Assembly (NCBI GenBank): GCA_003963305.1
Contig: RXJR01000021.1
Location: 1-37,500, forward strand
Source of the DNA: Candidatus Melainabacteria bacterium
GTDB lineage: Bacteria > Cyanobacteriota > Vampirovibrionia > Obscuribacterales > Obscuribacteraceae
Reading direction: 5' to 3'
DNA: 37,500 nucleotides
Part shown: positions 7,610-37,500 of the stretch, one piece after another
Layout of the letters: each line of letters begins with the position of its first letter
Numbering within the stretch: the first letter of the stretch is position 1
The notes under the pieces: generated by a model
Told to the model about the DNA's origin: nothing
The model's input: only the letters and a program-made list of their open reading frames with translations
Database searches by the model: none
Position numbers and translations under genes: made by a program

Positions 7610-9073
7610 ATGTCCACAACTGAAAAAGATCAAATAATCAAGGCGATCAATGACCTCGGCAGGCGCGTAACGGCAGCCGACGTGGCCACAAAAACCGGTC
7701 TGCCTCTGCTCAAGGCAACTTCAGAGCTGAACAAAGTTGCAGCAGAGACAAACGGGCACTTGCAGGTTAGCACCGCGGGCGATATCGCATACACTTTCGA
7801 CGCAGGATTTCAAAACGCATATTTAGCGCAAGGCATGAAGAAAACGATCAAGGAGATTGGCGACAAAATCTTCAAAGTCGGTTTCTTCCTGCTGCGCATT
7901 TCCTTTGGTGTCGGTCTGATTCTCTCCTTTCTGGTGATCGTAGTTCTGATCATTGCCGCAATTTTCTTCGCTCAGCGTGGCAGTGACAGCGACAGTGACA
8001 GCGACAGTGATAGCGGCTACGGCGGCGGCTTTGGAGGCTTCGACTTCTTCGACTGGATGTTGCTTCGCAATTTCTTCTACTGGGGTCCGACCTATCCAGT
8101 CTACGTACCGTACGACTACAACGATTACGGTCGCAACTACGACCTGTACGACAAACCAACGACTCGCCAGCCTGAGACGAACAACAACTTCATTATGAAC
8201 TGCTTTTCGTTCTTGTTTGGAGACGGTCCACCCAACCTCAATCTGGAAGAACGCAAGTGGCAGTTGATTGCGCAGACGATCAAACAACACAACGGTGTTG
8301 TCACAGCAGAACAACTGGCACCATTTACAGGCGCCGACCCTGCCAACGAAGACGGCGTTTTGCCTGTGCTGGTGCGCTTTGACGGCAAGCCCGAAGTGAC
8401 CGAGTCCGGCAACATTGTTTACACATTTCCAAATTTGCAAGTAACAGCAAAATCAATGTCATTTGCGCCTCTGCCTCCCTTTTTAAAAGAGTTCGAATGG
8501 GAGTTCACCAGCGTTCCGGCATCGGCGCTCGTGCCTGTGTTCATTTTGGCCGGGCTCAACTTTTTCGGTGCCATTTTCCTCGTCACTCATTTATGGATTC
8601 CGGTACTGCATGCCTTTGCCGGCTTGATTCATGGACTGATGCTCTACGGCACTCTCTTCCTGGCTGTACCGACGATTCGATACGCCGTGATCCGCTGGTT
8701 GAACGGCAATATTCAGGACCGCAACGCTCAACGCAGCAAATATGCAGAAGTCTTGCGCAATCCGCCTGCGACAGTGGTCAAGAAACTCGCCGAAGCAAAT
8801 CAGTACCGCATCGGTGAAAAGCGAGTGAGGGCAGATGATCTGGTTTACAGCACAGAACGCGATGTGATCGACCAGGACTTCAATCACGAAGACCGGAAGT
8901 TCGACGAAGAGCTTCGCAAAGGCGCACAGCAACAAAAGCAGCATCAACCGCCAAAGCACCAACCACCGCAAATCACTCAGGATGCTCAAAATCAGCCGGA
9001 CCACATAATTTCCCTTAACCCCAAAGAGAAATCAGAGGTGAAACCAATCAAGTCCAAACGTCCATGGCAATAA
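7610..9073 (+). CDS. Conserved membrane protein with two winged-helix-like modules (cyanobacterial/plastid type)
   Basis: A 487-residue protein of unknown function. An N-terminal module (about 6-65) has a winged-helix look and ends in GDIAYTF. A membrane helix (about 90-120) and an (Asp-Ser)n run (125-135) lead to a Gly/Tyr/Phe-rich segment. A second copy of the module (about 205-275) follows the phrase FSFLFGDG and ends in GNIVYTF. Two more hydrophobic stretches (about 300-365) and a Gln/Pro/Lys-rich tail complete it. The same order and the phrases RISFG, FLFGDG and NLEERKW are what I remember of a conserved cyanobacterial protein with plant homologues; I cannot check this here. Function is unknown; no neighbour gives a clue. 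Confidence 0.82.
   Translation: MSTTEKDQIIKAINDLGRRVTAADVATKTGLPLLKATSELNKVAAETNGHLQVSTAGDIAYTFDAGFQNAYLAQGMKKTIKEIGDKIFKVGFFLLRISFGVGLILSFLVIVVLIIAAIFFAQRGSDSDSDSDSDSGYGGGFGGFDFFDWMLLRNFFYWGPTYPVYVPYDYNDYGRNYDLYDKPTTRQPETNNNFIMNCFSFLFGDGPPNLNLEERKWQLIAQTIKQHNGVVTAEQLAPFTGADPANEDGVLPVLVRFDGKPEVTESGNIVYTFPNLQVTAKSMSFAPLPPFLKEFEWEFTSVPASALVPVFILAGLNFFGAIFLVTHLWIPVLHAFAGLIHGLMLYGTLFLAVPTIRYAVIRWLNGNIQDRNAQRSKYAEVLRNPPATVVKKLAEANQYRIGEKRVRADDLVYSTERDVIDQDFNHEDRKFDEELRKGAQQQKQHQPPKHQPPQITQDAQNQPDHIISLNPKEKSEVKPIKSKRPWQ
7982..8014 (+). repeat. 6-bp tandem repeat coding Ser-Asp dipeptides
   Basis: AGTGAC and AGCGAC alternate for five and a half units inside the winged-helix membrane protein and encode a Ser-Asp run just after its first membrane helix. 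The unit is a multiple of three, so copy-number change keeps the frame. Confidence 0.8.
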
Positions 9074-35642: not shown

Positions 35643-35762
35643 ATGCAAGGAGAAAAATCAAGACAAAGTGATTACGTATTGGACCTAGACGAAAATTCAA
35701 GCTTTCATCTATGCTTTGAAGGTGGAATGATTGGATCTATTGGAGTCTTAGAGCACAAGTGA
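35643..35762 (+). CDS. 39-residue protein coupled on both sides
   Basis: The ATG follows the TAA of the gene before without a gap, and its TGA overlaps the GTG of the TPR gene by 4 bases (GTGA). Both junctions are typical of translational coupling, which makes a real small gene likely. The product is acidic in its first half (DYVLDLDENSSFHLC) and Gly/Ile-rich in its second (GGMIGSIGVLEHK). There is no known motif. It may serve as a linker that passes ribosomes on to the TPR gene. Confidence 0.6.
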   Translation: MQGEKSRQSDYVLDLDENSSFHLCFEGGMIGSIGVLEHK

Positions 35763-36895
35763 ACGCTGATTGGTATCAATATCAAATAGCCGGAGAAGAA
35801 GCTCTGCAGGAGGGTGATTACGCCTGCGCCGAGACAATGTGGTTGGCCGCCTATGAACAAGCCAAGAAGTTCAAGAAGTTCGACGCCCGCTTCGCTGTGA
35901 CATTAGAAGGTCTGGGCGAGGCACTCTGGCATCAGGGTAAGTATGCTGAAGCGACAGCTCTATGCGAGCAAGTGCTTGAGATTTTCAAGATAACTCGTGG
36001 AATTGAACATCCGGATGTGGGTGTGACCGCAAACAATTTAGCAATGCTCTATAAGGCTCAAGGCAAATATGAGCAGGCTGAGGTTTTATATCAACGAGCC
36101 ATCGAAATCATGACGCGCTCACTTGGACCAGATCATCATGATGTCGCTTATCTACTGAGCAACTACAAAGACCTTTTGCGCATTATGGGTCGCTCGTCTA
36201 CGGTAGAATCGCGCGCCTCGGCGCCGGTGACAGCGGAACAACTGACCAAATCAGGACAGTTCAATACAATCACGATCAAGCCGCAAGAAAAACTAAATGA
36301 CACCATGTCTCAAGATCGGTTGATGCCGGTTCAACACGGCGAAATCACCTGGGCGCAATACAGACAGTCCGCAGAACAGGCACTCATGGTTGGAGACTTC
36401 GCCAAAGCCGAAGAGATGTGGCATGGAGCAATGCGTCGTGCCGAACACTTCAAAGAAACAGATCCCCGACTGACAATAACACTTGAAAGTCTGGCAGAAG
36501 TACTATGGAAACAAGGAAAGTACGCTGATGCAGAGGTTCTTTGCCGCAGAACAATGCAGATTTACGAAGACACTCTGGGCTATCATCATCCGGATGTTGG
36601 TATCATCGCCAACAATCTGGCAATGCTTTATCACGCTCAGCGGAAATATGCACAAGCAGAACCGCTATACAAGCGAGCTTTGCCAATACGAACACAAGCT
36701 CTGGGCGCCGATCACCCAGCCGTAAACAACCTTATTTCAAACTATCAAAATCTACTCAGAGCAACTGGAAGATCAGCCGAAGCTGAACGCGTCAGATTCG
36801 AAGCCCAGAGCATTACATCCGGTCGCTGGACACGCTCAGGTTCCTATCAAGCCCTGACTATTCCGCAAGGCGAGAAGCTGCACGAGTTGAATTAA
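35759..36895 (+). CDS. Double-module TPR protein, paralogue of the one at 11485
   Basis: A 378-residue cytoplasmic protein of two similar halves, each with about three KLC-type TPRs (phrases VTANNLAMLYKAQGKYEQAEVLY and IIANNLAMLYHAQRKYAQAEPLY) and a closing motif (LTKSGQFNTITI after half one, WTRSGSYQALTI after half two). Halves begin alike (WYQYQIAGEEALQEGDY; WAQYRQSAEQALMVGDF). It lacks the Pro-rich linker of its paralogue. The start is a GTG inside the GTGA overlap with the small gene. It should be an adaptor; the small membrane protein just after its stop is the natural candidate partner. Confidence 0.85.
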   Translation: MNADWYQYQIAGEEALQEGDYACAETMWLAAYEQAKKFKKFDARFAVTLEGLGEALWHQGKYAEATALCEQVLEIFKITRGIEHPDVGVTANNLAMLYKAQGKYEQAEVLYQRAIEIMTRSLGPDHHDVAYLLSNYKDLLRIMGRSSTVESRASAPVTAEQLTKSGQFNTITIKPQEKLNDTMSQDRLMPVQHGEITWAQYRQSAEQALMVGDFAKAEEMWHGAMRRAEHFKETDPRLTITLESLAEVLWKQGKYADAEVLCRRTMQIYEDTLGYHHPDVGIIANNLAMLYHAQRKYAQAEPLYKRALPIRTQALGADHPAVNNLISNYQNLLRATGRSAEAERVRFEAQSITSGRWTRSGSYQALTIPQGEKLHELN

Positions 36896-36897
36896 CC

Positions 36898-37089
36898 ATG
36901 GAATCTGTGTTCAGCTTTCTGCTTTTCATCGGGATATATCTAGCGCTTCAACTATGGATACTGCCCAGGCTGGGTATCCAAACTTGAATGTCCGGAAGCT
37001 GCTCGGTCGAGCAGAAGGATAAAAAGAAAAACGGACAGCAGACGCTCAAGAATCCAGCCGAAACTGAGATTCAAGAAGACCACATATAA
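36898..37089 (+). CDS. Candidate selenoprotein: 63-residue membrane protein with in-frame UGA
   Basis: An ATG 2 nt after the TPR stop opens a frame with one membrane helix (SFLLFIGIYLALQLW) and then ILPRLGIQT, an in-frame TGA (36985-36987), MSGSCSVEQ and a basic, Lys-rich tail to a TAA at 37087. Reading TGA as selenocysteine gives T-U-M-S-G-S-C, with U30 and C35 as a possible redox pair at the membrane surface. A SECIS-like hairpin lies at the right distance (separate entry). Many other genes here end in TGA, so TGA is not reassigned in this genome. Alternatives are two tiny genes (29 and 33 codons, TGA-ATG junction) or a broken gene. The 3' end overlaps the convergent gene by 19 bases. Confidence 0.6.
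36991..37019 (+). promoter_or_regulatory. SECIS-like hairpin just after the in-frame TGA
   Basis: CTGCTC (36999-37004) pairs perfectly with GAGCAG (37009-37014) around GGTC (37005-37008). TCC (36991-36993) can pair with GGA (37017-37019) below an internal loop. The apical GGUC begins 18 nt after the TGA; in E. coli fdhF the SECIS apical loop is also GGUC, about 19 nt after the UGA. Confidence 0.6.
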
Positions 37090-37500
37090 AGCGAATCCAG
37101 GAATTTGTTTGATTGTAAGGAATAGACGCGTTTTGTTTTTCCAACCACACAAGCAGCCACGATCCGCTTCGTGCGCTGGTCCAGAAACATTCGCATACGA
37201 AATGCATTTCCAGTGTTCTTGAATGTACCTTCGACATATCGGCCAGGGAATGCACCACCACCAAGTCCATCAGGTACTTTATTGGTAATCGTGCCTTTTG
37301 CTCTTGCAATCATGCCTTCGCATTTGGTATCAAGAAATCGCTGCACTGCTACTGGATCCAAACCATATCGTTGAGACACTGCAGCAATGTCACTTTGAGC
37401 AGCGCCAAGCTTTACTCCAGTTTGAGCAGCAGCAAAATACAATGGATCATTTACTGATTGGTTTTCCTTCAGTTCAAGGCCCTGAGAACTCGGAGCCGTG
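37071..37500 (-). CDS. C-terminal part of an unrecognised protein, cut by the window edge
   Basis: The frame is open from the right edge to a TAA at 37071, so the start lies outside; 142 residues are visible. A helical part (YFAAAQTGVKLGAAQSDIAAVSQRYGL in broken phrases, then PVAVQRFLDTKCEGMIARAKG) precedes a Gly-rich beta part (VPDGLGGGAFPGRYVEGTFKNTG; RIVAACVVGKTKRVYSLQ). I do not recognise a family. The C-terminal part looks like a compact globular domain. The 3' end overlaps the candidate selenoprotein gene, which comes from the other side. Confidence 0.65.
   Translation of the reverse strand, partial: TAPSSQGLELKENQSVNDPLYFAAAQTGVKLGAAQSDIAAVSQRYGLDPVAVQRFLDTKCEGMIARAKGTITNKVPDGLGGGAFPGRYVEGTFKNTGNAFRMRMFLDQRTKRIVAACVVGKTKRVYSLQSNKFLDSLYMWSS

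Follow-up and report, generated by a model that had tools for sequence, protein, structure and literature searches.

At the end of the 37,500-nucleotide stretch of Candidatus Melainabacteria DNA analysed here (the window, a term that refers to the whole stretch), a short open reading frame of the forward strand starts with ATG at 36898, meets an in-frame TGA at codon 30 (36985-36987) and continues in the same frame to TAA at 37087-37089. With selenocysteine (Sec) as residue 30, the predicted product has 63 residues, MESVFSFLLFIGIYLALQLWILPRLGIQTUMSGSCSVEQKDKKKNGQQTLKNPAETEIQEDHI. The initial annotation had described an ATG, 29 codons with one membrane helix, the in-frame TGA, the continuing frame to TAA and, 17 nt past the TGA, a 6-bp hairpin closed by a GGUC loop, and each of these elements was recovered, the hairpin at 36999-37014. 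This UGA selenoprotein arrangement at 36898-37089 is confirmed as a real observation. The locus comprises the following features.

35759..36895, + strand: TPR protein gene, its stop 2 nt upstream of the selenoprotein ATG (ORF position)
36898..37089, + strand: predicted selenoprotein gene with Sec as residue 30 (68 UGA loci, its own included, and one Cys homologue)
36901..36972, + strand: predicted single membrane helix, residues 2-25 (AlphaFold2; homologues whose N-terminus is intact are hydrophobic here)
36955..36987, + strand: family motif W-I-L-P-x-x-G-I/V-x-T-U (Pro23, Gly26, Thr29 and Sec/Cys30 invariant in an alignment of 34 diverse members)
36985..36987, + strand: UGA, predicted to be decoded as selenocysteine (conserved across homologues)
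36989..37021, + strand: extended SECIS fold with a predicted lower stem, 36989-36993/37017-37021 (RNA fold alone)
36999..37014, + strand: SECIS apical hairpin with 6-bp stem and GGUC loop (fold, synonymous recoding, covariation)
37000..37002, + strand: codon of the putative partner Cys35, U-x4-C (55 of 69 members have Cys at exactly +5 relative to the Sec/Cys residue)

The TPR gene and the selenoprotein gene are probably co-transcribed. A large convergent ORF (37071-37500 of the window, minus strand) ends within the selenoprotein gene, overlapping its final codons by 19 bp. By itself, an ORF-TGA-ORF arrangement is not rare, as the window holds 53 of similar size, two of them with a comparable G-loop hairpin, so that the significance of the one described here comes from its conservation and from comparative evidence.

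Homologues were searched in three phyla, covering 60 relatives of the window's genome, 345 Spirochaetota genomes and 338 Verrucomicrobiota genomes, and all family sequences derive from genome or MAG assemblies. The family comprises 69 loci in 54 genomes when the window's own is counted, with 23 genomes from the window's order, 28 from Spirochaetota and three from Verrucomicrobiota. At the Sec position the codon is TGA in 68 loci and TGT, encoding Cys, in the remaining one (L083/L027, genome G032), which is collinear with the other members and runs on past this position; equally, the frame is open beyond the site in all 69 loci. Both a conserved in-frame UGA and a Cys homologue, as looked for in a bacterial selenoprotein, are consequently at hand, no homologue ends at residue 30, and a sequencing error, which the initial annotation had considered, is excluded by the same TGA at 68 loci. 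Including the members with Cys at exactly +5, 64 of the 69 carry a Cys within nine residues of the site; two of the other five have a second UGA. Run against 385 further genomes from the same phylum as the window, the family profile gave no hits, which indicates its specificity, and no homologues were found in viral contigs and plasmids. One Spirochaetota match with Ala at the site (G077, 19.8 bits), in a genome with no detected tRNA-Sec, was left out of the count. Some genomes hold several family copies; G022 contains further copies together with two tRNA-Sec genes, and one copy of this genome (L095, identical to L016, on G022:C19), in which a TGA and a TAA interrupt the N-terminal helix region, is probably decaying. 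Matching tRNA-Sec positions and scores suggest that G022, which belongs to the window's family, is the genome of the MAG Candidatus Obscuribacterales SW_5 (L016), and this would put the window in that order.

The machinery for Sec insertion, the presence of which had been posed as a check, is complete in the 7.5 Mb genome of the window. A tRNA-Sec with anticodon TCA was detected with 71.8 bits, together with SelA (529.8 bits), SelB (336.6 bits) and SelD (366.8 bits), the set expected to accompany a bacterial selenoprotein. Furthermore, every genome with the UGA form possesses tRNA-Sec. Among the 60 relatives, 30 possess tRNA-Sec, including all 22 with the UGA form, and among the 345 Spirochaetota genomes 44 do (at about 67 bits or more), including all 28 with the family, although these counts ignore kinship; the three Verrucomicrobiota carriers equally possess it. 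That the Cys form might signify lost Sec machinery was considered and dropped, as genome G032 keeps selA and selD; the absence of tRNA-Sec from this 88% complete assembly may be due to incompleteness. In an Akkermansiaceae MAG, the SelD gene (L148; G062:C106:8706-9632) itself contains an in-frame TGA, and its product is probably a selenoprotein in its own right.

The hairpin, CTGCTC-GGTC-GAGCAG, has its stem 11 nt and its loop 17 nt past the TGA, and the UGA with the subsequent 46 nt is predicted to fold at -14.3 kcal/mol. The GGUC loop has G at its first and second positions and, at 17 nt, falls into the published range of bacterial SECIS elements, stated in PMC13188914 as 16-37 nt from the UGA. 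Compared with synonymously recoded sequences for the same peptide, all 69 loci fold more stably than the average recoding (mean z -1.77), with p < 0.05 in 33 of them, and with the register set by the Cys codon the stem pairing exceeds that of 1000 shuffles. In the set with GGUC loops, 91.7% of cells are paired and 12 cells show changes on both sides versus 2.1 in shuffles, while the respective numbers for both-side changes in the set with UGGA loops are 15 and 5.8; as the sequences are related, these numbers are not to be read as probabilities. The covariation score lies beyond 500 of 500 shuffles for each loop type. Two further measures in the UGGA set, the number of pairs changed on both sides and further pair types, were no higher than in shuffles, in part since some members, with a 6-nt loop, slip register. 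When GGUC and UGGA loops were aligned together, the stems were shifted against each other so that the consensus fold contained no pairs, which was solved by splitting the loop types. A scan of the window with Rfam recovered no family at gathering cut-offs.

Translation beyond the UGA is indicated by two patterns. Between the UGA and the GG of the loop, GGUC members have 17, 20 or 23 nt and UGGA members 17, 20 or 26 nt, with one outlier in each group, and such spacing in steps of three preserves the frame. Furthermore, a comparison of six close relatives gives, for the tail 3' of the hairpin, 138, 41 and 163 differences at codon positions 1, 2 and 3, versus 188, 201 and 190 in the 60 nt past the TAA, so that the coding constraint extends beyond the UGA and ends at the TAA. 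General readthrough or a reassigned code, for example with Trp at UGA, would account for the frame being open beyond the TGA, but is the least credible of all readings given that 6 of the 21 large ORFs of the window end on TGA as an ordinary stop, as the initial annotation had held, that the sole non-UGA homologue among 69 has Cys and none has Trp, and that co-occurrence with tRNA-Sec is strict. Scarcely more probable is a true stop at the UGA, by which the 29 residues with their helix could alone constitute a membrane peptide and the conserved hairpin would function as an RNA element, for example an attenuator; the triplet-only spacing, the codon-position bias that ends at the TAA, the TGT homologue reading on through the site and the restriction of the UGA form to genomes with tRNA-Sec all speak against it. 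Sec insertion at codon 30 of the predicted product is, on these comparative grounds, almost certain. In the proposed mechanism, the hairpin 3' of the UGA would direct SelB and tRNA-Sec to insert Sec at residue 30, and translation would continue to the TAA at 37087. The claim of a selenoprotein with a UGA and a SECIS-like hairpin is supported by homologues, covariation and Sec machinery alike.

With respect to topology, single-sequence AlphaFold2 predicts a helix over residues 2-25 followed by a disordered tail that holds Sec30 and Cys35, in agreement with the small membrane-anchored protein envisaged initially; the mean pLDDT is 66.7, residues 1-20 reaching about 92 and residues 21-30 about 65. 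The mean net charge is -0.4 at the N-terminal and +1.4 at the C-terminal flank of the helix, and this bias would place the tail in the cytoplasm. Sec would lie on a flexible tail a few residues past the helix, with a partner Cys further along (U-x4-C), and Sec30 and Cys35 might form, as a selenosulfide pair, a membrane-tethered selenol/thiol site for redox reactions or chalcogen transfer. For the explanation as a whole, a small single-pass membrane selenoprotein with a tethered Sec site, a probability of about 0.9 is estimated.

A further view on the putative pair is offered by Verrucomicrobiota. In L109 and L110 (oriented UGA positions 8082 and 8076, respectively), a second in-frame UGA follows 12 codons on within SPGGSxUG and is accompanied by a separate GGUC-loop hairpin, 23 nt away in L109 and 20 nt away in L110. 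This second UGA apparently replaces the partner Cys, which L108 of the same phylum keeps, and such an exchange of Cys for Sec would support a redox pair.

Gene neighbourhoods can give a first glimpse on function. In the window's order, 11 loci (L082-L084, L086, L089-L092, L094, L100 and L101) adjoin a gene for a rhodanese and/or a CoA-disulfide reductase-rhodanese, some of them with an ArsR-type regulator in addition and ArsA farther off, and some with a predicted TauE-like permease, read by eye with no specific model match; the rhodanese and CoA-disulfide reductase neighbours suggest a sulfane-sulfur locus. In Spirochaetota, a HesB-like selenoprotein gene, which itself contains a UGA and makes up a two-selenoprotein pair with the family gene, is located directly upstream at 14 loci (L113, L116, L117, L120-L127, L131, L133 and L134), at a distance of about 300 nt (about 470 nt in L125), and is often preceded by a gene for a Lon-like protease, recognised by eye. 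More than half of all family loci have neither sulfur nor HesB neighbours, among them the window's copy, which is preceded by a serine dehydratase gene, an unknown gene and the TPR gene.

These neighbourhoods can be accommodated in different ways. The same selenoprotein could be a subunit or anchor of a membrane complex with its main partner genetically unlinked and Sec as a redox sensor, as many copies, the window's included, have no conserved neighbour and some genomes encode several copies; the recurrence of sulfur-linked neighbours in a large subset is at odds with this possibility, which seems improbable, if by no means negligible. Somewhat better placed, yet still unlikely, is a partnership with the HesB-like (IscA-type) selenoprotein in membrane Fe-S or metal delivery rather than in sulfane-sulfur detoxification, for which the 14 Spirochaetota loci speak, whereas a search for HesB-like genes with this motif around the copies in the window's order found none, rhodanese and CoA-disulfide reductase genes occurring there instead. 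A role of the membrane-tethered selenoprotein in sulfane-sulfur/persulfide or Fe-S chemistry, as judged from gene neighbourhoods, can be put forward tentatively, at odds somewhat short of even. With similar reserve, a near-obligately selenium-dependent, membrane-tethered selenol carrier might be proposed for at least three phyla, with a selenosulfide pair at the cytoplasmic face (a diselenide in some Verrucomicrobiota) that acts in persulfide/Fe-S chemistry. If true, such a carrier would represent a class of membrane selenoproteins overlooked by discovery based on Cys pairs.

The initial annotation had, furthermore, proposed the selenoprotein as a candidate new one, which agrees with the comparison with current resources. 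Pfam and NCBIfam models gave chance-level matches only with 24 members, and no entry fits among the 119 prokaryotic selenoprotein families in Table 1 of PMC13188914 (2026 list), where the comparison was limited to name and motif for entries that have no model. The family has apparently not been described before, an unnamed earlier listing being possible among the groundwater MAG candidates and in the supplementary tables of PMC13188914, which lie outside this comparison. With Sec in 68 of 69 members, methods that require Cys homologues can miss the family. In fact, the authors of deep-Sep state that candidates without Cys homologues may be filtered out, GrdA having been the only such protein known before (PMC12013277), and this filter is the likely reason why the family was missed earlier. 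The family apparently extends the prokaryotic selenoproteome, with annotation expected to cut the gene at the UGA to a 29-residue peptide; its small size and single helix provide a direct test case for the contribution of selenium to a membrane thiol site.

Several known systems can be compared. In the YeeE/YedE selenoprotein (GUxSG motif) and the UGSC-containing protein, Ser/Gly residues come soon after Sec (PMC13188914), as in the new family; however, these proteins have their own models, PF04143 and NF041046, neither of which matched any of the 24 members. The HesB-like selenoprotein (TIGR01911, NF038090), equally UGA-bearing and a neighbour at the 14 Spirochaetota loci, is a distinct protein from the IscA/HesB family; the neighbour analysed scored below the curated cut-offs of both models. 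With the coding-region SECIS of the E. coli FdhF type, the family shares a UGA presumed to be decoded via SelB and tRNA-Sec, a hairpin directly 3' and a G that opens the apical loop, but differs from FdhF-type selenoproteins as a new family without a Pfam/NCBIfam match or a fitting listed family. In eukaryotes, SELENOK and SELENOS are likewise small, cross the membrane once and carry Sec in a flexible tail; for SELENOS, this build is described in PMC3628699. The resemblance would be one of architecture only, and no homology between them and the new family is known. Sec is located next to the C-terminus in SELENOK and SELENOS, whereas it is predicted to lie near the membrane in the bacterial protein.
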